A DNA stretch of 58,731 nt, from NCBI GenBank assembly GCA_016283575.1, contig JAEEND010000001.1, positions 1 to 58,731 of the forward strand, in the 5' to 3' direction. Positions 11,083-40,598 of the stretch are shown here, one piece after another. Numbering within the stretch: position 1 is the first letter of the stretch; each line of letters begins with the position of its first letter. The position numbers and the translations under genes were made by a program. The DNA is from Lachnospiraceae bacterium (GTDB taxonomy: Bacteria > Bacillota > Clostridia > Lachnospirales > Lachnospiraceae). The notes under the pieces were generated by a model. It saw only the letters and a program-made list of their open reading frames with translations. It was not told the origin of the DNA and ran no database searches.

Positions 11083-11646
11083 TCAAGCTTCTTTACTCCA
11101 CAGATAACAGTAGGCCTGGGTTCTTGCTGCGAATCTCTCAGTCTTTAAAAGTTCACGAACCTCAGCTTTGGTGTACCATTTGGCTTCAATTTCTTCTAAG
11201 GTAGAATCACTTTCACGGATGGTACCTTCGGCAATGCCCACGATACATACATTGGTTTCGTTGGAAAAGCCCACAGCACTGTAGCTCTGGCCGATGGTAT
11301 CTTCAATCTTTACTAAGTTTAAGCCGGTTTCTTCCATGAGTTCACGCTTTGCCGCAACTTCCGGAGTTTCGCCGGGATCAATGAGTCCTGCGGGAAAGTT
11401 AAATACCCAATCCCCGGGAGCCATTCTGAATTCTTTATTTATTAAGATTTTTTCTTTTGCCGCGTCATGAATGATAAGTACTACTGCATCGGGATCCTTC
11501 ACATGAAGATCTTCGAAGGTCTCTATATTCGCATTTCTACTTATCATTTCATATACTTTTTCTTTGTGATCCACGGTTTCATATGTAATATCATAGCGGG
11601 TAATAAAGCGACCCTTTTCTTTTTTCTCTAATTTAATAAATTTCAT
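11083..11646 (-). CDS. Nudix hydrolase (ADP-ribose pyrophosphatase-like)
   Basis: A 187-aa protein with a complete Nudix box, GLIDPGETPEVAAKRELMEE followed by TGL, matching GX5EX7REUXEEXGU. Nudix enzymes cleave nucleoside diphosphates linked to another group. The length and the EFR/NFPAG segment before the box resemble the ADP-ribose pyrophosphatase (NudF) branch. The frame begins at 11685 inside the preceding gene; the ATG at 11646 with GAGGTG just upstream gives a normal 17-bp gap and is preferred. Probably the last gene of the sigma/anti-sigma-TRIC unit, though its link to that pathway is unknown. Confidence 0.87.
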   Translation of the reverse strand: MKFIKLEKKEKGRFITRYDITYETVDHKEKVYEMISRNANIETFEDLHVKDPDAVVLIIHDAAKEKILINKEFRMAPGDWVFNFPAGLIDPGETPEVAAKRELMEETGLNLVKIEDTIGQSYSAVGFSNETNVCIVGIAEGTIRESDSTLEEIEAKWYTKAEVRELLKTERFAARTQAYCYLWSKEA

Positions 11647-11663: not shown

Positions 11664-12782
11664 TCAAAATGACGGAAGATTCCATTCGAAGTGAATGGCA
11701 AGGAATCTTATAAGTACCACCACCGTCATACTTATTATTGCTGATATGATTATATTAAAATACATATCAGTTACGTAAAAAGAAACAGCTCCGGCTACGG
11801 CAGCCATGCCGTAAACCCGCTTACGCATGATAAGAGGCATCTGACCTGCCAGGATATCTCGTAAGATTCCGCCGCCTATACCTGTCATGACGCCCACAAA
11901 CATGGATAAAAGCATGTGGTCGTTAAAGCCTGCATTTATGGAAGCTCTGCATCCTACCACCACGAATGCTGCAAGTCCGATGGAATCCGCGGCATTAAGT
12001 ATCTTCTGGTTAAGGCTTGAAGCCATGACGCTTTCTGCCTTACGATTCTTTTCTATTATGAAGTCTATGATACAGGTAACTGCAGCAACGGTTACATATA
12101 TAGGCTCCCTGAACATTACGGGAGGTATTGCTCCAAGTAATAAATCTCTTATTACTCCGCCACCCACTGCCGTTGCTGAGCCTAGGACTATTGCTCCGAA
12201 AATGTCCATCTTCTTTTCTTTTGCAACCATAACACCGGAGATTGCAAAAGCAACGGTACCGATCATCTCGAGGATAAAGATGGCAGTTGAGAAGTTGAAG
12301 CCCTCGTATATTTCACCTGTGGTCGCTTCATCATACATAGTTTCTTCGTTTACATCCGAAAGCTCATCTGAAGCATCCTCACTTTGCTTCATCATAAGAC
12401 TTGATTCCGCACTGTTCTCTTCAGGCTTCTCATCGGCCTCATCAAAACTTTCCATCACACTTTCTGCATTTTCCGTAACAGCGTACTCAACCGCCGCTTC
12501 TTTATATTCTGCGGGAGCTTCCATGCTTCGCGCCATCATCACTTCAGGCGCTGCGGATTTAGTCATGTTACCGTTCTTAAATATGAAAGGTGTTACGCAG
12601 AGTAACAATACTGCTGCCGTGGCTACATATCCCGCGATAGTGCTTCTAAGATGGCGACGCTCTTCGAATCTATTGTCCCGCTTTGCATCCTCCATTCGTT
12701 TTCTTACCTTAAGAAGGGCTTCTTCACTCATGGATTCATTTAAATATTCATTTTTAAGTTCATCTAATTCTTTAGATTCCAT
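11664..12782 (-). CDS. anti-sigma-like N-terminus fused to a TRIC/UPF0126 channel domain
   Basis: A 372-aa protein with two parts. Residues 1-45 are a charged helical cytosolic segment (LDELKNEYLNESMSEEALLK, then VRKRMEDAKRDNR). They resemble the sigma-binding start of RsiV-like anti-sigma factors. A TM helix follows (about 46-66), then a 95-residue acidic linker outside the membrane. Residues about 165-372 are a seven-helix TRIC/YicG (UPF0126) domain with both signature turns, GGGVIRDLLLG and GGGILRDILAG. TRIC proteins are trimeric cation or small-solute channels. The gene stands 11 bp behind an ECF sigma gene, the usual place for the cognate anti-sigma factor. The frame is unbroken and the ATG at 12782 is clear. 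Confidence 0.85.
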   Translation of the reverse strand: MESKELDELKNEYLNESMSEEALLKVRKRMEDAKRDNRFEERRHLRSTIAGYVATAAVLLLCVTPFIFKNGNMTKSAAPEVMMARSMEAPAEYKEAAVEYAVTENAESVMESFDEADEKPEENSAESSLMMKQSEDASDELSDVNEETMYDEATTGEIYEGFNFSTAIFILEMIGTVAFAISGVMVAKEKKMDIFGAIVLGSATAVGGGVIRDLLLGAIPPVMFREPIYVTVAAVTCIIDFIIEKNRKAESVMASSLNQKILNAADSIGLAAFVVVGCRASINAGFNDHMLLSMFVGVMTGIGGGILRDILAGQMPLIMRKRVYGMAAVAGAVSFYVTDMYFNIIISAIISMTVVVLIRFLAIHFEWNLPSF

Positions 12783-12793
12783 GGTCTTCCCTC

Positions 12794-13279
12794 CTATTCT
12801 TCGCCTATTTCAAGGCGTAATTTCTTTAAACCTCGATAGAGCCTGCTTTTTACGGTGCTCAAATTTTCATCAAGTATATTTGATATTTCTTCAAGCTTCA
12901 TATCTTCAAAATATTTTAAAATTATAACGGTTCTGTCCTTAACATCCATGGCATCAAGAGCCTTCTTTAAATCCGTATCTTCATAGGTATCGAAGGTTGC
13001 GGGCTCAAGAAACTCTTCTTCATCAATGGAAACGTGCTTCTTTTCAGAAAGGAATCGATAGGCTTCGTTAAGCATGATGCGATACACATAGGTTGCCGCG
13101 AACTCCGGATTCTTAAGCTTTCCGGCACTCCGCATAGCCTTGTAAGCACCTTCCTGAACAATGTCCTCGGCATCATCCCGGTTCTTTACAAGGCTCATGG
13201 CCATTCTGAAATAGCTTTGATATTTAGTTAAGACGATCTGCTCAATAATCGCTTCCCTGTCTTTAAAGTTATCTGCCAA
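12794..13279 (-). CDS. ECF-type RNA polymerase sigma factor
   Basis: A 161-aa sigma-70 family protein with only regions 2 and 4. Region 2 shows YFRMAMSLVKNRDDAEDIVQ and YVYRIMLNEAYRFL; region 4 shows LEEISNILDENLSTVKSRLY followed by RGLKKLR. It directs RNA polymerase to a stress regulon when released from its membrane anti-sigma factor, here probably the TRIC fusion encoded 11 bp downstream. The start codon is TTG at 13279, with AGGAG 8 nt upstream; no better ATG exists. A possible ECF-type -35 (TGAAAC) stands upstream, consistent with autoregulation. Confidence 0.92.
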   Translation of the reverse strand: MADNFKDREAIIEQIVLTKYQSYFRMAMSLVKNRDDAEDIVQEGAYKAMRSAGKLKNPEFAATYVYRIMLNEAYRFLSEKKHVSIDEEEFLEPATFDTYEDTDLKKALDAMDVKDRTVIILKYFEDMKLEEISNILDENLSTVKSRLYRGLKKLRLEIGEE

Positions 13280-13322
13280 TCGAGCAACTCCTCTCTATCT
13301 TATTTGATTCATATATGGTCTT

Positions 13323-13332
13323 AAAAGTTTCA
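13323..13332 (-). promoter_or_regulatory. possible ECF-type -35 element of the sigma gene
   Basis: Minus strand TGAAACTTTT, about 45 nt before the TTG start, resembles the -35 of SigV/ECF30-type promoters. No clear CGTC -10 is seen at the expected distance, so the call is tentative. Confidence 0.35.
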
Positions 13333-13340
13333 AAAGAACA

Positions 13341-13364
13341 AAGAGTTTCCCATGGGAAACTCTT
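13341..13364 (-). terminator. terminator of the type IV pilus operon
   Basis: A 24-bp perfect palindrome with arms AAGAGTTTCCC and GGGAAACTCTT around AT, followed on the minus strand by a T-rich tract. It lies 39 bp after the last gene of the pilus operon and insulates the sigma gene. Confidence 0.85.
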
Positions 13365-13402: not shown

Positions 13403-16400
13403 TTAATCAAGGTCAAAGAGCTCTACCTTGCTGATCATAAGGCTGTCCGAAACAGTATCGCTTACGATCCGCTGATTGTTTCTTACCCAGTCTGTATAAA
13501 CGGACACTTCAAATTCATTGGTGCCGGGGCCCATTATATCAGAAATGGGGACTTCTACATAGTATGTATTTCCGCTCTGTAAAATAACTGAACCGCTGCC
13601 TGCAGTATAGATAGCATTACCCCTTGTATCATAAACGGTAAGGTCACGGGGCGAGCCATCTAAATAGAATGCCGCATGTATAGTTTTGGAGCCTCGCACG
13701 ATATTATTATCAGCTACGTTAAAATAAATTCTTTCGCTGTCACCTGTAAGGGCTGCTGTATCCGCAGCAGAGCCGGGTATGTAAGGAATCACAAGACTTT
13801 CTTTTTCATCGGCATATGCAGAACCGTCTTCCATAATGGAAACCTTGGGGTCCTTAATGGAGCCGATGTAGGAAGCAACCATTGTGTTAATAAAGAGCTT
13901 TGCCTCCTGCTCCGTGATATTTCCTGTGTGGCCCACACCTGTGTAGGTGATGTTACCCATGTTGTAGATGTAGTAGTTGTTTCTTGCATCCCTGGGTGAA
14001 AGGCTGGATAAGTCGTCGGCATAATAATTATTGTCGGAAGTAGTGTAGTCAGCGATTGTGTACCATACTACAAGATCCGACTCGCCGTCAGAGTCTATGT
14101 CCCTTTCTATGTCCAGAGCCCAGTACTGTGAGTGGGTGTTGGAACCATAGAAATTGTCGGCAATCTTATATGGATAGTTGGTAATCATACCATCATTAAT
14201 CTTTTCAACAAGGGTCGGGCAGTTGATATCCGTACCCACATAGCCTTCGGCACTGTCCTGAGTGTGGAGACCCTTAAATACCGCTCTACTCTGAATATCG
14301 TAGCCAAAGAAGGTATTTTCGGCGGTTCTTCCGTCAGTGTTGCCGCTCCAGTTCTGGAAGAAGGGAATCAGCCATTCACGTAACTGAATATATGTTGCGC
14401 CCTGAGTGTTTGGTACGGTGCTTTCTCTGTAACTGTTAGGCGCGTATGCTATATCCTTTCCTGAAGAAAGAAGAGTATTCCAGTTGGAAGTTATTGTTGT
14501 CCTTGAAGCATCGGTATATTTATTTATTGATTGACCGGAGCGGACAATGGAACCGTTTTCAGTAACTCCGTAGGTATCCATACCGGAAATCTTACGTACG
14601 TACTGGGTTAAATATCTGGGACGCGCGTCAGCAAGTCCGTCTCCCCAGCCTCCGCCGTAACCTCCGAAAAGATTAATATCGCCGGTCGCTCTTACATTAT
14701 CCCCCGCAGTGTCATATTCATAATAATCCGTAAGCTGTGCTGTCTGCACAAAGGTATCATCATGAGCAAAAAGAATACAATGTCCGCTGTTTGCATAACT
14801 TTCGATGGCATTGAGAAGAGGAATATATCTGATATCCGCAAAACCGTCGCCGAAACCGAAAATCAGCATATCATAATCATCGAAAATATTGTTGTTATTT
14901 ATAAATCTGTTTACAAGACCATTTTCTCCATAGGTAGGGATTGTGGTAATCTCCAACTCGAAATCGGGAATGTTATTTAGTAGCTCGCCCCAGATTCCTG
15001 TGCCCCTTGCAAGCTCACGCTCTAAGTTAAGGTTATTGGCATTTACGCCGTTACCGTTATAGCCGGGCGCGGGCTCTGTGGAGAAGCCGCTGGTTATCTG
15101 AAGAATTCTAAGTCTTTCTTTTTTCGTACGATCTTCTTTTACCAAGGTATAGCCGGTACGTGAGTCGTGGATTCCGGGGTTAAGATTGGATTTAACCAGT
15201 AATTCCCAGGATACGCAACCAAGGAAGTCTGTGGGCACAGCTCTTGATAATCTATATGGAGTGCCGGAAGTAAGATTATAGTGACCGCCCTCCATACCAA
15301 CAGTTTCGCCTGTATATAGGTTCACGATGCGAAGAGCATCCATCTTTTCCTGAGTCTTTGAGTATTTACCGTCATTGTTAATATCGATAAAAAGCTCAGC
15401 ATCATAGCTGTTGCCTGCGCCCCAGGAACCGAGTCCCGAAATGCTGAATTCATAATTTAAATAAAAATGTCCGTCGCCTGCAGGCTCAAGATATGTAGCA
15501 GAGTCAATGTAATGATGGGATCCTGCAGTAGTGTAGCTATATTCCGTAGGCTTTGATGTAAGATTAAGGAACAGCTTCTGTTCGTTTACATAGTTAAGTA
15601 ACGAGCCTGAAGTTGCAATGCTTGCAGAAAACAGGTTCTTACAATATCTCTGGCTCCAGTTGAATCGGCCCGTATTATAGGGTGCTGCCATGTACTGAGG
15701 ATTTAAAATCTCATCCTGTCCTGTGATTGCATATACCATCAACTGGTAAATATATGAAGATGTATCAAGAATTCCGTGAAGTGTGGTGCCGTTAGCGGTA
15801 ACCACGCTGTTTCCTGCGTTATAACCCGTAGGTGCGCCGGAAACCACGGGGGATTCGGTATTCCCGTATGTAAAGAAATCGTCCGCCACGATAATGGGGC
15901 ATCCGTTATCAAGGAACTGTTTTAACTGCTTATATTTATAAGTGGTTAAATCAGTGCCGGGGTATCTGTACTGAGTCTTATTGGTATTTGAAACATCACT
16001 CTTAATAAGACCGAAATAAGGAAGGTATCCTAAGTCACCCACATGGGTATATACAAGGCCCGTCATAGAGGTGTCGGTGTACTTTTTATAAGTTCTCTGC
16101 ACCGCGCCGTTTCCGTAATCAACAGACTCCGTCGCTTTATTGTAATAGTCAATATTGGAACCGATGTAGATGATATCGTATTGCTCGGTAATATCTTCGT
16201 TGTGACCGATAAACTCCTGAATGGTCATGTAGTGCATGTAGACATTCTCGGGCTTACTTACGAAATCACTTAAGTACCTTGATATAAAGGTCGCTTTATT
16301 GCTTCCTGCAAAAGAATATGCTTTACAAGGCTCAATTTCGAGCACATTTAAAGTGTCTTTATAGATGATGCCTGCGGTTTTTCTGTAATTTAAAATATAC

Positions 16401-17356
16401 TGAAGCACCAAGGCCGGGGACACTTCGTCAAGGGGTATCGAAGGTCTGTCGGGATGTGAAATAGAGTTATTGTAATTCTCTCTGTCGATTGCATCCACAA
16501 CAGGTCCGAAGCCCGCTGATATGGTTCCGGCATTGAAAAAGAAACCGATGTTATCAGATGCAAAAATACGGGTATTTGAAAGGGCCTGACCATCCATAAA
16601 GTCTTCTGCCACAAAGTCATACCAGTAAATATTACTGCGCACAAAGTTACCGTCATTTAATTTAACAACGGACTGAAGCACCGACTTCCAGACACCGTCT
16701 TCTGCATTAACGTCTTCAGAAAAGTTTCCTTCTATATCAGAAAAAGCATTATCGATATTTTCACTTAATAAAAATGCCGTTACTTTATATAAGTTAGAGT
16801 TAGCCCAAGTGGCTGCGGGATCCGTATCGGGATCGTCATCAAAGTTCCATTCATACGCCTTTTCATAAATAATATAGTCAATTACCAGAGGCACGGGGTT
16901 TTCCGAATCGATTGCCGTTACTCTTCTTAATAATTCAAGGGCGCCCTCTTCGGAAATATCGTTATTTAAGTAATTATCAACATTGTTTCCGGAAAAATAG
17001 ATTAGATCTATGTCTCCTGAGTTAAGGTCTGCTGCCGTAAGGTCCCTTGCCGCTTTAGCTGTAACATTTATGTTTAAAGCCGTGGCACTTGCCGTATTTC
17101 CGAATACATGATTTTTTAAAAGTGCCTTTATGCCATCGCTTCCGATGTTGGCATTTGAAACATCATTTACGATTTCTAATATATTAAAGTCTTCACCTGC
17201 ATTAAGCTTATCCGTAACCTTTGTTTCGGTGTCATAAAAGATACCTGCGGCGTAAGACACATTTCTTTCTTTTTGTGAAAGAGCACCATAAAGGAAGGAC
17301 CACGTAAGTGCTCCTGCCATTATGAATGATAAAAGAATGATTAGCTTTCTTTTCAC
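13403..17356 (-). CDS. DUF5057-type secreted protein of the pilus operon
   Basis: A 1317-aa protein. It starts with a signal peptide or TM anchor (KRKLIILLSFIMAGALTWSF), and the remainder is extracytoplasmic. Repeated short blocks FNILEIV, TLNVLEIEPCKAY and RLRILQITSGF, each opening a similar segment, mark the DUF5057 type. The segments contain Rossmann-like strands followed by DLIYFSGNNVD, YDIIYIGSNIDYY and DMLIFGFGDGFAD, reminiscent of a glutamine-amidotransferase-like fold. The C-terminal 130 residues look like a beta-sandwich. The function is unknown. It is the last gene of the pilus operon, so a pilus-associated or surface role is inferred. The start is GTG at 17356 with GAGGT upstream. 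Confidence 0.75.
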   Translation of the reverse strand: MKRKLIILLSFIMAGALTWSFLYGALSQKERNVSYAAGIFYDTETKVTDKLNAGEDFNILEIVNDVSNANIGSDGIKALLKNHVFGNTASATALNINVTAKAARDLTAADLNSGDIDLIYFSGNNVDNYLNNDISEEGALELLRRVTAIDSENPVPLVIDYIIYEKAYEWNFDDDPDTDPAATWANSNLYKVTAFLLSENIDNAFSDIEGNFSEDVNAEDGVWKSVLQSVVKLNDGNFVRSNIYWYDFVAEDFMDGQALSNTRIFASDNIGFFFNAGTISAGFGPVVDAIDRENYNNSISHPDRPSIPLDEVSPALVLQYILNYRKTAGIIYKDTLNVLEIEPCKAYSFAGSNKATFISRYLSDFVSKPENVYMHYMTIQEFIGHNEDITEQYDIIYIGSNIDYYNKATESVDYGNGAVQRTYKKYTDTSMTGLVYTHVGDLGYLPYFGLIKSDVSNTNKTQYRYPGTDLTTYKYKQLKQFLDNGCPIIVADDFFTYGNTESPVVSGAPTGYNAGNSVVTANGTTLHGILDTSSYIYQLMVYAITGQDEILNPQYMAAPYNTGRFNWSQRYCKNLFSASIATSGSLLNYVNEQKLFLNLTSKPTEYSYTTAGSHHYIDSATYLEPAGDGHFYLNYEFSISGLGSWGAGNSYDAELFIDINNDGKYSKTQEKMDALRIVNLYTGETVGMEGGHYNLTSGTPYRLSRAVPTDFLGCVSWELLVKSNLNPGIHDSRTGYTLVKEDRTKKERLRILQITSGFSTEPAPGYNGNGVNANNLNLERELARGTGIWGELLNNIPDFELEITTIPTYGENGLVNRFINNNNIFDDYDMLIFGFGDGFADIRYIPLLNAIESYANSGHCILFAHDDTFVQTAQLTDYYEYDTAGDNVRATGDINLFGGYGGGWGDGLADARPRYLTQYVRKISGMDTYGVTENGSIVRSGQSINKYTDASRTTITSNWNTLLSSGKDIAYAPNSYRESTVPNTQGATYIQLREWLIPFFQNWSGNTDGRTAENTFFGYDIQSRAVFKGLHTQDSAEGYVGTDINCPTLVEKINDGMITNYPYKIADNFYGSNTHSQYWALDIERDIDSDGESDLVVWYTIADYTTSDNNYYADDLSSLSPRDARNNYYIYNMGNITYTGVGHTGNITEQEAKLFINTMVASYIGSIKDPKVSIMEDGSAYADEKESLVIPYIPGSAADTAALTGDSERIYFNVADNNIVRGSKTIHAAFYLDGSPRDLTVYDTRGNAIYTAGSGSVILQSGNTYYVEVPISDIMGPGTNEFEVSVYTDWVRNNQRIVSDTVSDSLMISKVELFDLD

Positions 17357-17374
17357 AAAAAATACCTCGCTATA

Positions 17375-20086
17375 TTACTGTCCGTCACGGGAACTTGCTA
17401 TAACTTCAAATTCATAGATTGAATAACCGTATGCGTTCATGCGTCTGTTATTACCCTTTAATCTTAAATACCGCACTGTTTGATTAACATTTACCGTATC
17501 GTCATTACCTGCGGCTCCTGCATAGTTACCGAGATTGGTCCAGTTGTTTGCGTTATTTATATTAGATGAATACTGGATATCGTAGTTTCCGGCCCTGGCG
17601 TTTTCCCAGTGAATGTCGATATGGTCCACATCCACGAAACTTCCAAGGTCTATTTCAAAGTACTGAGGATCCACATCCCACTGAGATTCCCATCTTGTGT
17701 CCATCTTTCCATCTATTGCGTATGATGCCTGATGTGAATCCACTATAGCGGTCTGACCTGATGCATTATAGGATTTTGCCTTTGCATAGAACGCGATATT
17801 TACATTCTTAAAGCGAATCCACTGCTTAAAGCCTTCCAAGTATTGATAAAACAATCCGGATTCTTCGTCCTTTACTACATAGATGTATGTATTATTAGGC
17901 ACGCCCGGTCCTGTAATTCTGTATCTGGTATATGTAATATTTTCGTTTTTATAGTTAATCGATGCAGTTCTTACAGACCCGCCTGTTCCGGCTACACGCC
18001 TAAATGTCTGGGGGAAAGCGCTGTCACCTGGAGTAGGTGCGTAAAAGGCAGGTAATTGTGAACCGCTTAAGTTCTGAGCATTACTTCTGTACCAGCAGAA
18101 ATTGGTGCCGGCTTCTTCGTGATAGAAGTAAACCGAACCTGAATTTCCGATCTGAACCTTTGGACGCTGTCTCACGGAATCATAAGTATAGTTAAGGGTA
18201 AGACCCTCTGCCTGCACAGTGACTCCTGCCTGCACTTCCGCCATAGTGGGCGCATTTCTTTCGGCTGTGCCGGGAACCGGGAAATGGGCCGGCAAGTCTT
18301 CCACATTACGCTGCTGGCTGATTTCATCATCTGAAATAAGCTCATCAACTATATTAATAGTCACGTTATCGGTTATATCCTGATTGTTAAGAAGATATAA
18401 GGTCGCTACAAAAGAATCACTTCTCGCATCATTACCGATACTTACGTGAAGCTTCGAATCCTGCATATAAAGAAGGGTATTTCTGACTGCAGGAACGGAA
18501 TTTACTCTAAGTTCATCACGTCCCGGTACAAGGCCGATTACATCGTATGTAAGCATCTCCGATGTGCCCTTCATAACGCGTCTTGTATCTTCATCTATCT
18601 GAATTTCAACCTTGGGAAGTCTCACGGTAACTGTTTCATGTCCCGTTTCTTCTCCCGTGGTCTTTGAAATCATCCGTACATAAACCGTAAAGGATTTGTC
18701 ATTGTAATAATCGATATCTTTTACCGCCGTCACCACGCCTATGCCGGAGTCGATACTTACCTTTCCTTCAAGTCCCTTGTAATCCGAAATACTCCAGATA
18801 AGTATTACATCATCCGCATCGATACCCGCAATCTGAAGCTTCGATCTTAAATCAAGAGTTCCGTTTCTTTTCATGTCAAAAGAAAGTGCATCGAAATTAA
18901 TGTCGATATCACTAAACTTAAGGGGAATGGTGAGATCAGCATATTTTGAGGGATCCTTTACGGAAGTGGCTCTTACCATGGCATAAGCGTTAACACGCTC
19001 CGATTCCGTAGGGAAGGTCCTGTAGAGTTTATAGGTTAATGTGACTTCGCCACGTCTGCTTACGGTGACGCCATCCCGCTCGTATCCGGGAGTCTGTCCC
19101 CAGGAAACCTGCTGGAAGTCATCGCTCATGTTTTCTCCGTGAACCAAAGCGGAAAGATTTAAAACTGTACCTACATCCACCTGTCCCACGGGACCATTTA
19201 ATATTTCAACATATGTAATCTGCGCAATCTTAACGATACCTTCACTTGAAGAACTGGAAACTGTATTTCCGGCGCTATCTAAGTCAACGCTTGTTGCCAT
19301 TACTCTGAAAGATGACGCTGTTTCGTCCGGATCTATTGTAAGTAAACCTGTTTTAGGATCGATGTCGGTGCCCGCTCTTAATCCCGCTCTGTCGGCAATG
19401 GACCACACAACGGACTGGGAAGGGAATCCGATACCCGTTACATGAGCGGAAAACTGCTCCGTAGCTCCCTTCACGACAGTGACAGTATCTGGTGTTATGT
19501 TAACTCCTGTAACACTGCTTATTACTACGTTTACTCCTCGATATACTTCGGAAACCTCTTTATTTACCTTAACATCGTTACGCATGGTAACTGACTTATT
19601 AAATACCGCATTTCTTGTATCCTTGGAAAAAGAAATATTTATGTTAACCAGTTTTTCTTTTTCCGTAACAGAGATATCCACATTAAATTGAGAGACATGC
19701 TCGGCTAAAATATTGGTCTTTTCTTCCGTAACAAGCCTGATTATTCCCGTTTCTTTATCAAATACGGATTCGTCACAGTAAATTATGCCACTTGCTTTAT
19801 CATAGAAAACCGTATATATATTGCCGGTATTATAAATTTCCAGAGCTAAGTCTCCGTTTGCTTCTTCCTGAAGGCTTACACCGAGACCCGCTTCTTTTAT
19901 GCGGTCGGAAAGCCAGTTACCGGAATCCTGAGCCATGGTCTGAATATCTATTTCGTTTTTATTTTTAGAAAAGAATCTGGAAGAAGTGTACATAAAGCCA
20001 AAAATAATGCCACCCACAATAGCAAGTATTGCGGTTGCCACCAACACTTCGATAAGCGAAAATCCTTTCTTCCGATTCTTAATCAT
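17375..20086 (-). CDS. giant pseudopilin with Ig-like and F5/8 type C domains
   Basis: A 903-aa protein with a class III prepilin signal: KNRKKG then FSLIEVLVATAILAIVGG, with cleavage after Gly8 and Glu at mature position 5. After a pilin-like region, residues about 190-290 have a bacterial Ig-like (Big_2) pattern (VTGVNITPDTVTVVKGATEQ, VVWSIA, GLLTI). More beta-rich segments follow up to about 600. Residues about 765-895 form a discoidin-like F5/8C domain (YAIDGKMDTRWES, YFEIDLG, VDHIDIHWE, YSIYEFEV). Such domains often bind sugars. At 903 aa it is far longer than normal minor pilins (150-250 aa), so a tip adhesin role is plausible. TAATG overlap with the upstream gene couples translation. 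Confidence 0.8.
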   Translation of the reverse strand: MIKNRKKGFSLIEVLVATAILAIVGGIIFGFMYTSSRFFSKNKNEIDIQTMAQDSGNWLSDRIKEAGLGVSLQEEANGDLALEIYNTGNIYTVFYDKASGIIYCDESVFDKETGIIRLVTEEKTNILAEHVSQFNVDISVTEKEKLVNINISFSKDTRNAVFNKSVTMRNDVKVNKEVSEVYRGVNVVISSVTGVNITPDTVTVVKGATEQFSAHVTGIGFPSQSVVWSIADRAGLRAGTDIDPKTGLLTIDPDETASSFRVMATSVDLDSAGNTVSSSSSEGIVKIAQITYVEILNGPVGQVDVGTVLNLSALVHGENMSDDFQQVSWGQTPGYERDGVTVSRRGEVTLTYKLYRTFPTESERVNAYAMVRATSVKDPSKYADLTIPLKFSDIDINFDALSFDMKRNGTLDLRSKLQIAGIDADDVILIWSISDYKGLEGKVSIDSGIGVVTAVKDIDYYNDKSFTVYVRMISKTTGEETGHETVTVRLPKVEIQIDEDTRRVMKGTSEMLTYDVIGLVPGRDELRVNSVPAVRNTLLYMQDSKLHVSIGNDARSDSFVATLYLLNNQDITDNVTINIVDELISDDEISQQRNVEDLPAHFPVPGTAERNAPTMAEVQAGVTVQAEGLTLNYTYDSVRQRPKVQIGNSGSVYFYHEEAGTNFCWYRSNAQNLSGSQLPAFYAPTPGDSAFPQTFRRVAGTGGSVRTASINYKNENITYTRYRITGPGVPNNTYIYVVKDEESGLFYQYLEGFKQWIRFKNVNIAFYAKAKSYNASGQTAIVDSHQASYAIDGKMDTRWESQWDVDPQYFEIDLGSFVDVDHIDIHWENARAGNYDIQYSSNINNANNWTNLGNYAGAAGNDDTVNVNQTVRYLRLKGNNRRMNAYGYSIYEFEVIASSRDGQ

Positions 20087-22236
20087 TATTCCTCTCTCCA
20101 GTTTTCGTAAACAATCAAATCAGAGACCTTTATATTTTCAGGTCCCTCTTCCTCTTCATCTTCCGAGAAAGCATAGTTTCCGTCCGAGAATAAGTTTACG
20201 AGCATGTATTCTTTATCATCTATACGTGTTACTACCTGCATGGCTGCACTTACGCCTTCGGGATCCGGATCGAGAATGGCGGTGCCAGTTACGGTGATAA
20301 CTCCGTTAGAAATAACAATTCCCTTAAAGCTTCTATCCACAATAACATCTCCGGTTGCGACTAAGAGCTTAACCTTGTTCCAGTCTTCCCCGTGAGTGGT
20401 GCTTGTGCTGATTCTGTAGGGAGTTGTTGCATTATTTACAACCACGATACCGTTTTGACCATTTGAGTCATAGCCCACAAAGATATTTCCGACAAAGGGC
20501 ACCAGCTTATTTAAAAATGCTCTGTCCACTATGTTATAGAAGATTCCGTTAGCTTCTTTTTCCTGAAGCTGTTTGGATGTGGGTTCGGTTCTTGTAAGGG
20601 TAGTACACAGCTGTTTAAAGATTCTCTCGTATTCAAGCGAGTCTAAGTTAAGGCTTGTGTTATTGTCATCACCAATCGTTGACTCAACAAGTCTATACTC
20701 TCCGTTCTCTTTAGTGAAAGCATTTCCCGCAAGATCAAGCTTTAATACATCTTCTTCAGGAAGTCTTAAATCCGTGAGATAAACCTTAATATATTTATTG
20801 AGTCGCTCACTGTCTGCCGCATAGAAATCTTTAAAGAATGCATTGGCCTTTTCTTCTGAAGCAAAGGTAAGATAATAGTACACAACGCGAACATTATTGG
20901 TATTTGAATATACCTTTACGCATCCCGATGCATAATTTCCGATGGGAGCCTTTAATTTCTTTGAAATGGCGGTGGAGTCATATTCCACTGCGCCTTCATT
21001 TAAATATCCCTGAATATTATCAAAAAGAACGGGATTTGATTTACTTAAGCTCTTTCCCTCTTTAACAAAGAGACATTCTTCCGGGACCAGATAAGCAAGC
21101 TGGTTACTCTTAATTCCCAGGGATTCGCCCATTAATACATCGGCATTGGTATAGGTGGTGCCGCCCATGGATACGCTTCCTGCAGTCTTGATGAAAGAAC
21201 GTCCTGCAAGATACATATTCTTTATTTCCGACATATCAAGAGTGGTTCTGAGACCGTTTACGATGATGGCACTGTTATTATCGCCTGCAGCATCGCCACC
21301 GGTACCGTAGCCGTAATAGTTATTACCAAGTAATACGTTACTGCCGCTTCCGTTAATGGTTAAGTCATCCTGAATGTACTGGGTGCCGCGAAGAGCCGCA
21401 CTGCAGGATTCAATCGTTACATTTTTAGCCCATAAAAGAGAGGAATCTCTAAGCTCCACGGCGGTTCCGTTTATATTAAAGGTTCCGTCGGTAATAAGTG
21501 TCTGGATTCCACGTAAATCCGTAGCGGTTCGCTCAACATTAATACCTCCGGGTCCTGCATACATGGAACCTGTAAGGACTGTGGAACCAAAATCCACGTC
21601 GATTTCGTCATTGGCAATTATTATAAAATCTAAGAAGTCCGGCATTTTCACACTGTCCTTAAAGGAAATTGCCGGCACTTTAACTAAGATATCCGTTTTG
21701 ATAACGGATACATTATTATTTTTACTCTTATATGTTACTGTTACGTCCCGGAGTAAAACCCCATCGGTTCTCACTACCATGGTGCCGTATTCACGGGAAT
21801 CTCCCGCCATTACCACCGCGCCGTAATCTTTATCATCATTCCAGGCTGTTTTCTGTAAATATGAATTGAGTCTCTCTACGTTGTAGTAGCCGACACCTGC
21901 GGGATATTTAAGTAAATCCTTTAATCCCTCCACGTATTCATATCTGAACTGGTCCATACGCTTTTGGTCTGAATACAACTCATAGTTCTGAATTATAGTT
22001 AAATAGGCTCTTCCAAAAGAATCGGAAGCTTCTTTTTCAAGGCCTGCCTTAACCTCTTCCAGTGCACTTTCCGCTGTATAAAAGCTTTCTTTATTCTTAA
22101 GATTCGCATTCCTGATCGTAAGGTTAATGTATGACATGTAGAGAATTGCAGCTACCAGCATTCCCACAAAGCCTATGGCTATAAGTACCATTACAAGTGA
22201 GTAACCTTTATTATTTAATTTATTCTGTTTTTCCAA
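20086..22236 (-). CDS. large PilX-like pilin-signal protein
   Basis: A 716-aa protein. The N-terminus KLNNKG then YSLVMVLIAIGFVGMLVA has the layout of a class III signal, but mature position 5 is Met, not Glu, as in PilX/GspK-like minor pilins. The middle (about 200-400) has many short strand-turn repeats (TINGSGSNVLLG, IIVNGLRTTLDMS) of the kind seen in beta-helix or adhesin-like stretches. The function is inferred from position: it stands between two pseudopilin genes. The start is TTG at 22236 with GGTGAGG upstream, and the reading frame leaves no better choice. It overlaps the next gene by 1 nt. Confidence 0.75.
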   Translation of the reverse strand: MEKQNKLNNKGYSLVMVLIAIGFVGMLVAAILYMSYINLTIRNANLKNKESFYTAESALEEVKAGLEKEASDSFGRAYLTIIQNYELYSDQKRMDQFRYEYVEGLKDLLKYPAGVGYYNVERLNSYLQKTAWNDDKDYGAVVMAGDSREYGTMVVRTDGVLLRDVTVTYKSKNNNVSVIKTDILVKVPAISFKDSVKMPDFLDFIIIANDEIDVDFGSTVLTGSMYAGPGGINVERTATDLRGIQTLITDGTFNINGTAVELRDSSLLWAKNVTIESCSAALRGTQYIQDDLTINGSGSNVLLGNNYYGYGTGGDAAGDNNSAIIVNGLRTTLDMSEIKNMYLAGRSFIKTAGSVSMGGTTYTNADVLMGESLGIKSNQLAYLVPEECLFVKEGKSLSKSNPVLFDNIQGYLNEGAVEYDSTAISKKLKAPIGNYASGCVKVYSNTNNVRVVYYYLTFASEEKANAFFKDFYAADSERLNKYIKVYLTDLRLPEEDVLKLDLAGNAFTKENGEYRLVESTIGDDNNTSLNLDSLEYERIFKQLCTTLTRTEPTSKQLQEKEANGIFYNIVDRAFLNKLVPFVGNIFVGYDSNGQNGIVVVNNATTPYRISTSTTHGEDWNKVKLLVATGDVIVDRSFKGIVISNGVITVTGTAILDPDPEGVSAAMQVVTRIDDKEYMLVNLFSDGNYAFSEDEEEEGPENIKVSDLIVYENWREE

Positions 22237-22274
22237 AGGTCCTCACCTTCTTTCTTGATTAAAAAAAGCCAAAA

Positions 22275-23522
22275 TTACTGATTTGAAATCTTTAAGATAT
22301 ATTTACTCATGTCAAAAGAATCATGAGTCGCATCAAAGGCTCCGTCCCTGTATACCTGGATTTCCGTTTTATAAAGCCTTGCAGCGCTTTCTTCGTCAAG
22401 CAAATCCCTTATATCAAGGAGGTCTTTTGAAGTATCCGCAGGTAAGCCGTTGTAGGAATAAACTGCGTTATCCGGCATAGTGTAATCGGAAAGTCCCATA
22501 AGCTTTCGACCCAGGTTATATCCGTAGTTCGTATGAAGTATCGTAACGGGAGGAATATTCTGTTCCGATGAATCCTTCATTTCTGTAACACTTACTCTTG
22601 GCACATAGAAAAGCTCATTACTTAAAAGATTTGATGAGTTACTCCCCACCTGCTTTATGATATGGACGTGACAGGGCACTTTTTCCCTGTTCTGTATTAC
22701 GATATTGTCTTTAACGGAAGCTGCCACCGAAGAATAGTTGGGGAAATACATGATATAAATATTCCTTAACTGTTCCGTAGTAAGATTCTTTTCCGCAAGA
22801 CGCATGGTCTTTTCGTAGATTCTATCGGCTTCTGCCACAACTCCCGATGGAGCAGTATATTTAATGATGGCATTTATGGTCACTACAGTGCCGGATTTTT
22901 CAATATCTATTATTATTTCTTTTGTCAAAAGAGATTTAAAATCTTCCTCGGTGAAACCTGAAATTCCACCGTTAAACTTTTCGCTTCTCTGGAGAAATTC
23001 CGCATAGACTCTTCTTTCATCGGAAAGACCGACACTTAACAGCACATCGGAATCCATGTCTATATTACTTAAGTTTACGGTCTTTTCATCATTGTGAAGA
23101 TCGGGATCTGTTTCGTTCTTTTTATAGTAACCGGTGGCATCGAATGTCACCTGCACATCGAATTTAGTGTTATCTTCCGTTATGCCGTATATTGCATAAG
23201 TTTTCTTGTAAATGTCTGTCTCACTAGTCACGATTTCCTTGAAACCGTCCGCATTTTCAAGAGAATTAAGAGTATTGACCAAATCTCTTTTATCAAAAAT
23301 CTCGATGATTTCGTCGTAGTTATAAGGTTTAAACTCTTCAAGAAGATTCTCGGTAAGGACGGTGCCGCGAAGCATTCTTTTTGCTTTATCATTGGCGCGA
23401 CTTCCGGTTATAAAGGCATGAAGAAAAGGAATAACAATTATTCCCATGATTGTTATTCCTACCAGTAATTCCACCAGGGTGAAGCCTTTATTATTATGTG
23501 TTTTACCGGAGTGATCCTGCAT
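22275..23522 (-). CDS. minor pseudopilin
   Basis: A 415-aa protein with a canonical prepilin N-terminus: NNKG then FTLVELLVGITIMGIIVIPF, cleavage after Gly13, Glu at mature position 5. The hydrophobic helix is followed by ALRNE-like TENLLEEFK and a long beta-rich C-terminal part (to 415). The opening resembles PilV/GspI-type minor pilins, which prime pilus assembly. It is preceded by pilO (5-bp gap) and followed by the PilX-like gene. Confidence 0.82.
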   Translation of the reverse strand: MQDHSGKTHNNKGFTLVELLVGITIMGIIVIPFLHAFITGSRANDKAKRMLRGTVLTENLLEEFKPYNYDEIIEIFDKRDLVNTLNSLENADGFKEIVTSETDIYKKTYAIYGITEDNTKFDVQVTFDATGYYKKNETDPDLHNDEKTVNLSNIDMDSDVLLSVGLSDERRVYAEFLQRSEKFNGGISGFTEEDFKSLLTKEIIIDIEKSGTVVTINAIIKYTAPSGVVAEADRIYEKTMRLAEKNLTTEQLRNIYIMYFPNYSSVAASVKDNIVIQNREKVPCHVHIIKQVGSNSSNLLSNELFYVPRVSVTEMKDSSEQNIPPVTILHTNYGYNLGRKLMGLSDYTMPDNAVYSYNGLPADTSKDLLDIRDLLDEESAARLYKTEIQVYRDGAFDATHDSFDMSKYILKISNQ

Positions 23523-23527
23523 ATCGA

Positions 23528-24241
23528 CTATTCCTCATTGGAACTATCATTAACATCTTCCATTGTCTTAAACAAATCGTCGGTACCTATTCTTATGCCG
23601 TTGATTTCAGGTCTCTGGTAAGGGCGACCGTTACCCAGCATCTGATACATGCTGGCATTCATGGAACCTGAAAGAGTTCCGGAATTGGGATTATAGGATA
23701 ACGTAATCTCGTGAAGAGATTTACGCATTTTATCTTCAGTAATAAATTTAAGTGCTGACTTAATGTCTTCATATCCTGTATCAAAGGTCATGCTGACATT
23801 GTGGTCATAGAGATAGATTCCCTTGGGATTATCAACAACATGGGTCGATTCATTGCCGTTTTCGTCAAGATAGTACATGTCGGGATAGGAAACATCCAAA
23901 GCCAAGGGCTCGTTTATTTCAAAATAACGGATGCTTAAGTCATACTTATCTTCCAAGCCCTTTGCATAAAGCACCTTATCGGCAGGGAGAATGTTTGAGG
24001 GGTACTTGTCCATAATTTCTTTTGTCTCATCAGGCAAAAGAACGGTCTTCTCTCTGTAAAAATCAATGTCGCTTCTTAAGCTCTCGATTCTTCTTATGTT
24101 ATTATCAAGAACAAGATTTTCTTCTTCAAGAAGGGCGGTCTTATCATTTAAAGACTGGAATCCGTAAAAATATGTGCACACCAAAATGATGAAGCCCAAT
24201 GCTACCAAGAGAAGGTTTTTATCTTTATCACTGATTTTCAT
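23528..24241 (-). CDS. PilO-like type IV pilus assembly protein
   Basis: A 237-aa bitopic membrane protein. A short cytosolic start and one TM helix (about residues 11-28, LLLVALGFIILVCTYFYG) are followed by a coiled coil (about 32-70) and a ferredoxin-like periplasm-side domain. This is the PilO layout. PilO pairs with PilN and links the PilM ring to the pilus platform. It overlaps the PilM-PilN fusion gene by 14 nt, the order expected for pilM-N-O. Sequence similarity in this family is low, so the call leans on topology and position. Confidence 0.75.
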   Translation of the reverse strand: MKISDKDKNLLLVALGFIILVCTYFYGFQSLNDKTALLEEENLVLDNNIRRIESLRSDIDFYREKTVLLPDETKEIMDKYPSNILPADKVLYAKGLEDKYDLSIRYFEINEPLALDVSYPDMYYLDENGNESTHVVDNPKGIYLYDHNVSMTFDTGYEDIKSALKFITEDKMRKSLHEITLSYNPNSGTLSGSMNASMYQMLGNGRPYQRPEINGIRIGTDDLFKTMEDVNDSSNEE

Positions 24242-25790
24242 TTGTTTTACCCTCCTCTCTTAATTCGTAGGGAAAATACTTGCATCGCATGGTGAATGTA
24301 ACGCTCTTTTTACCATCCTCGGTGGATTCATCGGAAATACCTGTAATGGTAACTTCCGCAAGGCTGTCAAAATCAAGCATTGTATCTAAGATCTTGGCAA
24401 CTTCCTGCTTACTGGATACCTCCATGGTGATAAGCACATCTTCTTCAGTACAAGCCATACCGGAAACTCGAATGTCCGTAGGCATCTTTTCTTCCAGTTC
24501 TTTTATAAAGGCTGTGATTTCTTCGTTTCTGTTGTGTGTAGCTGCATCCAGCTCCTTCACATATTTATTGTCAACATACACACCCACATAGTCGTTGTAG
24601 GCAGTTACCACATACTGAAGAGAATTAAGATAAAGCTTCTTTTCCGCATTGTCTGCCTTGGCTGTTAAGAAACCTAAAAGGGATGTTAACATCAGGGCAA
24701 GGGATATAAATAAGCATCCGAAGAAAATAATTATTGAAAGACGACCCATATCCGTGGGGTTATCTTTTTTCTTTGATTTATCGGGTTTGAAGCCAAGGGG
24801 CAAAATGCCTGCGCCGAAACAGTCTACAAAATCTCCGAAACTCTTGTCCCTAAAGACTCTGTCAACCATAAGGAGTGACGTAGGTTTTAAGTGCTGACTG
24901 GGGATACCGGCGACACGGTTGATTTCACCCACCAGTCCCTTAATGGAGCTTCCCATACCGGTTACCAGGATTTTTGTGATCTGATCGTTGGGATGAGCAT
25001 TGTTATAAAAATCGATGGTCTTAACAATACCGGAAATAAGTTCTTCCGTAGCGGAGTTTTCGATTTCCGGGAAATCAGATGTAAGCACATCGTTTAATTT
25101 CAAATATTCAAAAGTATTAAGATATGTATCTCCCCGCTCTTCCATCACATCAAGTATGAGGCTGTCCGCTCCAACGGAGGTGCTTCGCTGCAGCATCTGC
25201 ACCTGATTCTTAATAACGGTCAGCATGGTGGAGGATTCTTCAATCTTGGCAACAAGGGTTGTGCCTTCCTTACACTCGCCCTTAGCCACCTGGAATATAC
25301 TGTTCCCGGCATAATCAAAGGCTTCTATATCGAAGTTTAAGTTGTCTGCCAGTGTGTAATAATCCTGCAAAAACTTCTTCGGCACAATGTAAATAAGAAC
25401 TGTTCTCTTTGTAACATCGCCTTCCACATCCCCTACAATTCTGTAGCCCACTTCATATTCATCAATGTCTACAGGGAAGTAGCTTGTAGAGTTGGCAATT
25501 ACCACCTGTCGCATTTTAGCCGGTGCAATCTTGGGAAGTTTTATTTCTCTTGATGCAATTCGGGATGAATTAATGGTAAATATTACATTCTTTCCGCGAA
25601 TACCGCATCGATTCATGCCTATTCTTATGATCTCCGACAGCCTTTCCACGTTCAAAATGGCGCCATCCGCCACAATGCCGTCTTCAATCACAAATTCACA
25701 TTTTTTTCCTACCTTGGGGATCTTTCCGGAACCGATTTCCAGAATCCTTATTAGGGAGTTCCCCAGCTCGATAGCTATTCTCTTTGCCAC
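24228..25790 (-). CDS. PilM-PilN fusion protein
   Basis: A 520-aa protein. Residues 1-330 are an actin-like PilM domain: AKRIAIELGNSLIRILEIG for phosphate 1, KILVTGMGSSIKGLVGEIN for the second nucleotide loop, FGAGILPLG near its end. A single TM helix follows (about 350-372). Residues 375-520 are a PilN-like domain with a coiled start and a ferredoxin-like strand pattern (MPTDIRVSGMACTEEDVLIT). In most species these are two genes; here the cytosolic ring protein and its membrane partner are one chain. The start is GTG at 25790 with GGAGG 8 nt upstream. Confidence 0.85.
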   Translation of the reverse strand: MAKRIAIELGNSLIRILEIGSGKIPKVGKKCEFVIEDGIVADGAILNVERLSEIIRIGMNRCGIRGKNVIFTINSSRIASREIKLPKIAPAKMRQVVIANSTSYFPVDIDEYEVGYRIVGDVEGDVTKRTVLIYIVPKKFLQDYYTLADNLNFDIEAFDYAGNSIFQVAKGECKEGTTLVAKIEESSTMLTVIKNQVQMLQRSTSVGADSLILDVMEERGDTYLNTFEYLKLNDVLTSDFPEIENSATEELISGIVKTIDFYNNAHPNDQITKILVTGMGSSIKGLVGEINRVAGIPSQHLKPTSLLMVDRVFRDKSFGDFVDCFGAGILPLGFKPDKSKKKDNPTDMGRLSIIIFFGCLFISLALMLTSLLGFLTAKADNAEKKLYLNSLQYVVTAYNDYVGVYVDNKYVKELDAATHNRNEEITAFIKELEEKMPTDIRVSGMACTEEDVLITMEVSSKQEVAKILDTMLDFDSLAEVTITGISDESTEDGKKSVTFTMRCKYFPYELREEGKTNENQ

Positions 25791-25811
25791 GATTAGTTCC
25801 TCCGAACAGTG

Positions 25812-26354
25812 CTATCTTATAATCTTGCCTGTTAAATAAGATAAACGTATCTGCCTTACAGTATTGCCTCGTTTAAATTCTATGGTATCAAGATATACAT
25901 TTTCATATCCTGCGTTCATGCGTCGTAAATCTTTAAAGCCTCCCGTACTTCTGTCAAAAGAAATATAGAGAGGGTTGTCACGGGTTCCGAGATTCGTGTA
26001 GCTTTCCCCGGAATTGGTGAGCCTGTATCGCGTGATAACTTCTTTTTTTGCCACAAGTTCACGCCTTACAAATACGGGATCCGATGTTTCGTCTTTATCA
26101 AAATCCACTATATATTCTTCAAAATAAGTTGCGCCATCCGTGTCGGTATATAATAGACCGTATGAGTCAATCTTTCCCATAGCCACGGTTTTATGGCTGT
26201 TTAACAGGCTTTCCATCTTGTCGGCGGCATCTTTAACGGAACGGCCCGAGAGGATTCCGAAGCCCGCAATTGCACCGCCCATAAGCAGGGCGATCATTGC
26301 CACCGTTACCATTAATTCCACCATGGAAAAACCCTTTGTGTTTTTAATAATCAT
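25812..26354 (-). CDS. minor pseudopilin (GspH/FimT-like)
   Basis: A 180-aa protein with the prepilin signal KNTKG then FSMVELMVTVAMIALLMGG, cleavage after Gly8, Glu at mature position 5. The helix continues into SVKDAADKMESLLNSHKTVA, as in GspH/FimT pseudopilins, followed by a small beta domain. It overlaps the prepilin peptidase gene by 4 nt (ATGA), so the two are translationally coupled. Confidence 0.85.
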   Translation of the reverse strand: MIIKNTKGFSMVELMVTVAMIALLMGGAIAGFGILSGRSVKDAADKMESLLNSHKTVAMGKIDSYGLLYTDTDGATYFEEYIVDFDKDETSDPVFVRRELVAKKEVITRYRLTNSGESYTNLGTRDNPLYISFDRSTGGFKDLRRMNAGYENVYLDTIEFKRGNTVRQIRLSYLTGKIIR

Positions 26355-27094
26355 ACAAAAAGTCCTAAATATGCCTCTATGAGCCTGTCTCCATAAAGAA
26401 GGGCTATTGTTACCCCCATGGAAAGGTAGGGTCCGAAGGCAAGGGTATGGTCCGCGCCTTTAAAGCGCATTCTCAGTAAATGAATCACTGAACCTAAAAT
26501 GCATCCCAGTATAAGTGCCAGGATATTAAGTTTCCAGCCAATAATAAGTCCCGTTGCGGCCATAAGCTTTACGTCGCCGCCGCCCATGGCTCTTCCCTTG
26601 GATATCAGTAATATCAAAAGAAAAAGAAGACTTACGCTGAAAAAACCTATTACGTAATCAAGTGTGTGTCTGTAATCCGTTGCCACTCTCACCGCTCCCA
26701 GAAGAAGCATGTAATATATAAATCCTTCCGGTATTTCGAAGGTGCGGGCGTCTATAACGGACAAAGCAATAAGTGCAGGTATAAAGAAGAAATACAGTAG
26801 GGTGTTGATACTTAATCCATATACCGCAAAGGTTGCTAAGTAAAGCACTCCGTTCAGTATCTCTATAAGAGGATACTGAACAGAGATTTTTTCATGACAA
26901 TTTCGGCATCTGCCTCTCAGTGCCATATAGCTTAGTACCGGCACAAGATCAAGAGGTTTAAGCACATATCCGCATTTAGGGCAATGGGATCTTTCCGTTA
27001 TAAAATTTTCGTGATTCGGAATTCTAAGTATCAGTACATTCACAAAGCTACCTATTAGAGTTCCGAAGATAAATGTCAAAATATAAAGTCCCAT
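26351..27094 (-). CDS. pilD: prepilin peptidase / N-methyltransferase
   Basis: A 247-aa aspartic protease of the membrane with about seven hydrophobic helices. It cleaves prepilin leaders and methylates the new N-terminus. The two catalytic Asp residues are D115 (SVIDARTFEIP) and D174 in the GxGD-type motif GGGDVKLM. The zinc-binding N-terminal loop is complete (CPKC at 38-41, CRNC at 63-66). This indicates the bifunctional, methylating form. It processes the five pilin-signal proteins of this operon. Confidence 0.95.
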   Translation of the reverse strand: MGLYILTFIFGTLIGSFVNVLILRIPNHENFITERSHCPKCGYVLKPLDLVPVLSYMALRGRCRNCHEKISVQYPLIEILNGVLYLATFAVYGLSINTLLYFFFIPALIALSVIDARTFEIPEGFIYYMLLLGAVRVATDYRHTLDYVIGFFSVSLLFLLILLISKGRAMGGGDVKLMAATGLIIGWKLNILALILGCILGSVIHLLRMRFKGADHTLAFGPYLSMGVTIALLYGDRLIEAYLGLFV

Positions 27095-27109
27095 TAAATA
27101 TCCCTATCT

Positions 27110-27125
27110 CTAAGATTAATCTTAG
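27110..27125 (-). promoter_or_regulatory. palindrome at the pilin stop codon
   Basis: CTAAGATTAATCTTAG is a perfect 16-bp palindrome overlapping the TAA stop of the major pilin gene (27122-27124). It could fold into a 6-bp stem that protects the pilin mRNA or reduces read-through into pilD. No T-run follows. Confidence 0.4.
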
Positions 27126-27589
27126 TAAATAATAGGATTGGTTGATGTTGTTGCAGCACCGCCGGGAGTCTGAATGAATCCTTCGATTGCTACGTTAACA
27201 GTACCTGTGTCTGCCTTCTTCACATAGAATTTGATTTCTTTATCTTTGTAATTCTTTGATACAAACTTGTATGTGCCGATTGTGCTTGATACTTCATCCT
27301 TTAAAGATGCAGGAGCTGTTCCTGTTGTAGCATCATGTGAAAGAGCAAACTCATTCTTAATTACGATAGTCTGGTCGTTAGATGTTTCGCTATAGATTAA
27401 CTCATCAGCCATGGCAATCTTAATAGCTTCAGCTACTTCTGCGATTGCTGTGTTATCCTTCTGAAGACGTGTTCTTTCAATATACTTCATATACTGAGGT
27501 GTAAGAACGCCTACAAGTACTGCCATAATGGCAACAACCACAATAAGTTCTACAAGTGAAAATCCTTTGTTGTTTTTTCTGTTTTTCAT
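27122..27589 (-). CDS. pilA: major type IV pilin
   Basis: A 155-aa prepilin. KNRKNNKG then FSLVELIVVVAIMAVLVGVL is a class III signal, cleaved after Gly9, with Glu at mature position 5 for subunit assembly. The C-terminal domain is small, without the paired Cys of Gram-negative pilins. Its size, strong RBS (AAGGAG about 9 nt upstream) and position after pilC point to the main subunit. It is separated by 75 bp from pilC, more than other genes of the operon, leaving room for its own mRNA processing. Confidence 0.88.
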   Translation of the reverse strand: MKNRKNNKGFSLVELIVVVAIMAVLVGVLTPQYMKYIERTRLQKDNTAIAEVAEAIKIAMADELIYSETSNDQTIVIKNEFALSHDATTGTAPASLKDEVSSTIGTYKFVSKNYKDKEIKFYVKKADTGTVNVAIEGFIQTPGGAATTSTNPIIY

Positions 27590-27664
27590 AATGTTTCTCC
27601 TTTATTTCTTTACCCCCGCCCTACTCAGGGGAATTTTTCTTTTGCTAACCCGAAATACTTATCC

Positions 27665-28879: not shown

Positions 28880-28890
28880 ATATAAGCTCC

Positions 28891-30588: not shown

Positions 30589-30620
30589 GCTTTTTGCCCC
30601 CAAAGAAAGTTATTCACCTT

Positions 30621-40335: not shown

Positions 40336-40598
40336 CTTTTTTTCCTCCATTTTACACATTGCACATGCTTTACTTTCCATTATTATAGGAAAACAATGCA
40401 TGCAAGTTTACGTTTGGGCGGAAACTGCCCTATACAATAATAAAGACTACCTATATCGGCAAAAAAGCTCAAAAAATTACAAGATTTTTATTGTTTTGTC
40501 ATTATTCAACGTAAAACAGTTCAAAGTGACACCGGTGCTTGTAGAAAAGCACCATAGTACTGATTCGGTCAATATAACGATAACGCCTGTAACACAAA
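40336..40598. other. leader region of the giant adhesin gene, with two inverted repeats
   Basis: About 260 bp without a gene. It holds GGGCGGAAACTGCCC (40416-40430; 6-bp arms with one imperfect pair, AAA centre) and the hairpin GGTGCTT-N6-AAGCACC (40534-40553). A TATAAT-like box lies at 40383-40388 without a well spaced -35. I see no riboswitch class I can name. Confidence 0.5.

Follow-up and report, generated by a model that had tools for sequence, protein, structure and literature searches.

In the stretch of Lachnospiraceae DNA analysed here (58,731 nucleotides, referred to as the window), a SigV-like ECF sigma gene is followed by one gene that encodes the N-terminal region of an RsiV-type anti-sigma factor, a transmembrane (TM) helix, an acidic linker and a complete TRIC domain (Table 1). 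The best explanation, to which we give about an even chance, is that through a genuine in-frame fusion an RsiV-type anti-sigma factor has had its sensor exchanged for TRIC; the TRIC part would then provide the input, the N-terminus would bind the sigma factor and proteolysis would set it free. This explanation draws on the gene layout and coding frame, the homology of both halves, the loss of the RsiV input and the predicted TRIC fold.

Table 1. Features of the sigma/fusion locus, in positions of the window
Feature	Positions	Strand	Remarks
SigV-like ECF sigma gene	12794..13279	-	TTG start, 161 aa
Anti-sigma/TRIC fusion gene	11664..12782	-	372 aa, single frame
Fusion residues 1-48: RsiV-type cytoplasmic, presumed sigma-binding region	12639..12782	-	profile match
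Fusion residues 49-67: single TM helix	12582..12638	-	hydropathy scan; model helix 20-75
Fusion residues 68-164: acidic low-complexity linker	12291..12581	-	predicted outside
Fusion residues 165-372: complete TRIC domain	11667..12290	-	seven model helices
ECF-type promoter TGAAAC-N19-TCAAAT	13302..13332	-	likely autoregulatory; homologue comparison
Terminator-like hairpin between DUF5057 gene and sigma operon	13341..13364	-	consensus match only
DUF5057 gene	13403-17356	-	5' of sigma/fusion operon
NUDIX hydrolase gene	11083..11646	-	likely start 11646, possibly co-transcribed; Pfam

Gene layout and continuity of the coding frame

The sequence-only reading had described a TTG-started ECF sigma gene followed after 11 bp by an unbroken frame of 372 residues, and both the coordinates and the reading of open reading frames bear this out; an AGGAGG-type ribosome site overlaps the sigma stop codon. 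On the other side, the first possible start of the NUDIX gene overlaps the end of the fusion gene. This NUDIX gene is present in two of the 18 genomes of the genus, the source genome included, and the only congener copy found has another gene context. The source genome is a draft assembly of 2.2 Mb in 31 contigs (97.5% complete), and its only PF03458 matches are those within the fusion.

To evaluate the coding frame, the codon usage of 18 other long open reading frames of the window was used to train a score. The fusion frame has no stop and its score is positive in 23 of 23 steps. Negative scores were obtained for both of the other sense frames in all 23 steps, and each contains stops in every step across the linker; in one of them all 23 steps have stops, in the second 19, its four open steps lying inside TRIC. 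An antisense frame is mostly open (a 346-aa ORF at 11887-12927, +), with scores from -0.27 to +0.13 over the open steps, and we take it to be a shadow. Because the codon score is even and no frame switch occurs, an indel joining two frames is disfavoured. Moreover, there is no in-frame ATG, GTG or TTG between codon 149 and codon 173 of the fusion, and the closest stand-alone TRICs have their first residue at about position 162-165 of the fusion. The evidence from the frame and from the start codons argues against an assembly artefact and makes a lost stop codon improbable; as a sequence, the fusion architecture is real.

Sigma factor and RsiV-type N-terminus

Pfam recognizes the sigma factor by Sigma70_r2 (1.5e-10) and r4_2 (1.1e-13), both above cut-off, and the best of 98 NCBIfam families is SigV (6.4e-45; 152.7 bits, which is under the curated cut-off of 190). 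At E <= 1e-30 the sigma was matched at 51 places in 50 of the 397 family genomes, its own included; of the places outside the source genome, 29 were fetched and 21 left aside, and the sigma factors encoded at these 29 loci, from other genera, are 43-56% identical to it. Within the genus, four of the 18 genomes, counting the source, have a match at 1e-15, the other three being just 30-32% identical and followed by a different protein of 492 aa. At this threshold the sigma is absent from 14 of the 17 congeners, many of these genomes being incomplete.

Two of the fetched sigma loci stop at a contig edge, and in all 27 with a readable next gene this gene is RsiV-type, as judged by alignment and inspection (285-362 aa); DUF3298 was found in both of the RsiV-type relatives that were run through Pfam. 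The general expectation that a cognate anti-sigma gene sits right behind the ECF gene is supported by this gene order. A profile of 27 same-family RsiV-type proteins gave 32.0 bits on fusion residues 1-72, the best of 2,000 shuffles reaching 6.0, and this score together with the synteny upholds the proposed resemblance of the N-terminus to RsiV-like anti-sigma factors. The fusion also shares with RsiV the single TM helix after about 45-50 residues. When residues 1-163 were compared with 299 family genomes, nine had a match, the source included, and in six of the eight others the match lies behind a SigV-like sigma; the remaining two N-terminal matches, at L036 and L040, lack a neighbouring SigV-like sigma, seem unrelated and were not counted. 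We consider the fusion N-terminus, from these comparisons, an RsiV-type anti-sigma region that probably binds the sigma factor.

What follows the TM helix is different. An AxA plus [IVLM]PxxG segment (signal-peptidase/amphipathic) is present after the TM helix in 25 of the 27 relatives and is absent from the fusion. Pfam found nothing in fusion residues 1-163, and the whole protein gives Gly_transporter only, with no DUF3298. For B. subtilis RsiV it is described that lysozyme binding leads signal peptidase to cut behind the TM helix, at a site shielded by amphipathic helices (PMC6066255), and C. difficile RsiV is presented as similar to it (PMC9044953). Since both the AxA/amphipathic segment and DUF3298 are missing from the fusion, the canonical RsiV trigger should fail here.

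TRIC domain and membrane topology

Concerning the C-terminal part, Pfam, motifs and predicted fold agree on the complete TRIC domain with both GGG-RD turns that had been noticed in the sequence. PF03458 matches in two stretches, with 7e-44 over the whole protein, and GGG..RD occurs at residues 207-213 and 303-309. In 57 of 57 aligned TRICs F179, D193, GGG207-209, RD212-213, D266 and F273, and likewise GGG303-305, RD308-309 and Y324, are invariant, and all are present in the fusion; E172 corresponds to E in 53 of the 57 and Y229 to Y in 44. Pore phenylalanines, glycine kinks and the lock residues of the C-terminal repeat have been named for prokaryotic TRIC (PMC5477506), and these have fusion counterparts in F179, F273, GGG207-209, GGG303-305, D266, R308, D309 and Y324. 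The nearest stand-alone TRICs (in G199 and G203) are 69% identical, and in named records the nearest ones, among the best 80 of at least 527 relatives, come from Oribacterium and other Clostridia/Lachnospiraceae.

Prokaryotic TRIC structures were also found with phmmer against the PDB (best 4.8e-30) and with a Foldseek search of the AlphaFold model (TM 0.86-0.93 on target). The pLDDT of the model over TRIC is mostly 90-98, with a few blocks at 79-85, and its mean over the whole protein is 79.9. In the model alignment (A2) 18 RsiV N-termini were placed outside the N-terminal region and, since the N-terminal third of the model rests on no homologues, the model was used for the TRIC part only. 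It has all seven TRIC helices; the hydropathy scan finds six of them, the sixth being visible only in the model.

The TM helix and an acidic linker of about 95 residues had also been proposed from the sequence, and the hydropathy/charge scan recovers both, with the correction that the linker reaches about residue 164; it contains 26 D/E and 6 K/R. Its model confidence is low (pLDDT blocks of 45-58 over residues 71-160), and it matches no other fetched locus, RsiV or TRIC. In prokaryotic TRIC the helix between TM2 and TM3 is reported to sit outside (PMC5477506), and the TRIC N-terminus should therefore be outside as well, which fits an anti-sigma factor with its N-terminus inside, one TM helix and an outside linker as the probable topology in the cell. 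The loop charges agree with that topology if they are assigned accordingly.

An independent observation concerns genome G043 (L083:1521-1901, -), where a 126-aa TRIC of half size was found, whose repeats seem joined at a shared GGG-RD as if by an inter-repeat deletion.

Search for further fusions

In the comparison with the 397 family genomes the fusion protein matched in 97, the source included, and none of the 397 held another uninterrupted match starting before residue 150; a further family search covered nearly the same genomes and added little. Three of the 18 genomes of the genus have a TRIC match, and in the two others TRIC is stand-alone. Among 391 class genomes searched with PF03458, 67 carry TRIC and, besides the source, two (G472 and G544) have open frames longer than 300 aa, which were rejected as fusions on inspection. 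A species collection (84,980 species) yielded at least 527 confirmed relatives, of which the best 80 were kept and none was seen to be fused, and one earlier contig scan of this collection confirmed no relative; viral contigs gave no match, and of 150 matching plasmid records none covers 80% of the query.

Several candidates were rejected individually. At L129 and L080 the long open frames that precede TRIC run antisense to neighbour genes, the extensions at L081, L082 and L151 contain no anti-sigma by inspection (a 65-residue extension at L162 was seen in part), and in G372 a stop interrupts the match that begins at residue 91, the locus holding a separate 212-aa TRIC gene. The search for the order anti-sigma, linker and TRIC beside ECF genes, as the sequence-only reading had recommended, gave no second case; TRIC and anti-sigma are encoded separately in the other genomes sampled. 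Separate genes in homologues had been named as what would speak for a join specific to this assembly, and this part of the concern is borne out for the other genomes, but the even frame and the lack of an in-frame start between codons 149 and 173 oppose such a join.

Concerning published work, no TRIC/UPF0126-anti-sigma fusion is described in the open-licence literature among the matches listed, in agreement with the first impression of a layout not known as described. PMC13118837, in the portion available, mentions both TRIC and sigma terms and draws no link between them. Class I anti-sigma groups are reported to have fused domains that are strikingly conserved within each group (PMC7406223), so that a sensor swap would stand out. 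Such a TRIC/anti-sigma architecture is new to these searches.

Two loci with separate genes may be mentioned in their own right. In genome G202 (L186:3090-4352, -) a stand-alone TRIC lies directly upstream of sigV-rsiV, on the same strand and with a SigV-type promoter between them; a sigma like that of G202 is absent from its three congeners at 1e-40. In G372 (L017:385-2361, +) the TRIC gene begins 21 bp behind another gene, a possible second sensor neighbour, which we take to resemble a methyl-accepting chemotaxis protein.

Promoter and regulation

In 23 of the 29 homologous loci the sigma gene is preceded by TGAAAC-N19-TCTAA, and in 26 by a looser form of this pattern. The promoter in the window keeps the -35 and the spacing, with TCAAA replacing TCTAA (one base), a -10 that occurs in none of the 29. 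By this comparison autoregulation of the sigma operon is likely, and the base change leaves room for a weakened promoter as well. In the source genome the pattern TGAAACNNTT-N15-TCNAAT has two exact and 14 one-mismatch sites, and the reversed pattern two sites in total. The second exact site (G000:C6:18142-18172; L165:1501-1531) is located 21 bp upstream of a gene that presumably encodes a relative of ABC sugar permeases.

We also considered TRIC as a general member of the SigV regulon and rejected it, as no SigV-type site lies within 400 bp upstream of TRIC in any of 130 TRIC loci (eight sites occur in 1.29 Mb of the same loci). The genome encodes one M50-family protease, a possible site-2 protease.

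Possible mechanism and alternative explanations

An ECF sigma factor with a membrane anti-sigma factor whose sensor is exchangeable is a known kind of system, and the sensor swap, seen in one genome, suggests as its most natural reading that the state of TRIC controls sigma release. In such a mechanism the SigV-like sigma would be bound by residues 1-48 on the cytoplasmic side of the membrane, and the single TM helix would lead out to the flexible acidic linker, bearing the TRIC channel or transporter with its N-terminus outside. Because the RsiV signal-peptidase site, the amphipathic helices and the DUF3298 ectodomain are gone, the trigger should be in TRIC or in the linker: a change in TRIC (substrate or ion occupancy, trimer state) or in the exposed linker could lead to a cut by a site-1 protease, the M50 site-2 protease of the genome might then free the sigma and, the promoter being of the type that the sigma would read itself, release would be self-amplifying. 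We regard it as possible, and put it forward tentatively, that the fusion is a channel-to-transcription switch in one protein, a "transceptor" in which TRIC occupancy or trimer state directly sets the release of the ECF sigma for a self-amplifying envelope or osmotic/glycine response. As to what bacterial TRIC proteins carry or sense, structural work points to cations (PMC5477506, PMC5401562), and mutant fitness data report UPF0126/TRIC genes as important for glycine utilisation in 11 bacteria (PMC12173739).

The fusion could also be passive, with a working anti-sigma factor and TRIC serving only as anchor or as co-regulated cargo (glycine or cation transport); cleavage of the linker may even let the two halves act separately. 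A long, acidic linker of low model confidence would be a poor rod for small channel motions, the fusion puts TRIC in an operon with an ECF-type promoter, and the importance of UPF0126/TRIC for glycine utilisation (PMC12173739) is on the same side; yet the RsiV input is gone and, without an input from TRIC or the linker, the anti-sigma factor has no known sensor, and we find this alternative rather doubtful. It is unlikely, in our opinion, that we are looking at a recent chance fusion without a selected function, made when a rearrangement removed the RsiV ectodomain and the open frame came to continue into a TRIC gene. The searched genomes hold no second case, the gene context differs from that of the one congener NUDIX locus found, the 17 congeners have no close sigma and the promoter -10 is changed, all as such an accident would have it; however, every listed key residue of TRIC is intact and the coding statistics are even across the frame, while the linker, unmatched elsewhere, is what would be expected if it had diverged since the join, although low-complexity linkers diverge fast.

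A true stop codon missing from the assembly, with anti-sigma and TRIC being two genes, would be compatible with a draft of 31 contigs and with the separate genes of the other sampled genomes. We hold such an error to be very improbable, as there is no frame switch, in a two-gene version TRIC would have to carry some 15 extra residues at its start, which would be unusual, and a single-base error leaves the missing RsiV ectodomain unexplained. Against the exchange of the RsiV sensor for TRIC, which we prefer, we have counted that it is a single case, the base change in the -10, the lack of a SigV site at the 130 TRIC loci, the rarity of the sigma in the genus, G202 standing alone, and the sixth helix being seen only in the model.

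Comparison with known systems

SigV-RsiV of B. subtilis and C. difficile, in which the anti-sigma factor is a lysozyme receptor, agrees with the locus in sigma type, in gene order, in the N-terminal region and in having one TM helix, and in homologues of the same family an ECF-type promoter lies upstream of the sigma gene, as here; the fusion differs in having TRIC instead of the DUF3298 ectodomain and the AxA/amphipathic protection segment. Prokaryotic TRICs (SaTRIC, CpTRIC, RsTRIC and SsTRIC; UPF0126/PF03458) share with it the two inverted GGG-RD repeats, the lock and pore residues and the predicted seven-helix fold. The other TRICs examined are stand-alone proteins of about 200 aa, whereas TRIC in the fusion has no start codon and is preceded by 164 residues with an extra TM helix.

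The CmpX channel of P. aeruginosa we take to be MscS-like, and the ectodomains of RsgI-type anti-sigma factors are soluble sensor domains, unlike the polytopic channel carried by the fusion. Channel-linked ECF control is already proposed as an idea for CmpX-CfrX-SigX (ECF102), an ion channel having been suggested to act with an ECF anti-sigma factor (PMC8999054); there the proteins are separate, the anti-sigma factor is soluble and both the channel family and the sigma group are others, so the comparison holds only for how the system might work. RsgI-type anti-sigmas are described as sensing different substrates, a precedent for varied outside domains on one kind of anti-sigma factor (PMC12203970). 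If the sensor swap is real, it shows that a complete polytopic channel can serve an anti-sigma factor as sensor, and the locus would provide a natural reporter of the substrates or signals of bacterial TRIC proteins.

Other gene clusters of the window

Upstream of the sigma operon, at 13403-30603 (-), the window contains a type IV pilus-like cluster whose last products are a prepilin-type protein of 903 aa with an F5/8 type C domain and a DUF5057 protein of 1317 aa; the other genes of this cluster we presume to be pilus genes. Farther on, at 30967-40401 (-), a protein of 3144 aa is encoded that contains 17 MBG_2 stretches.
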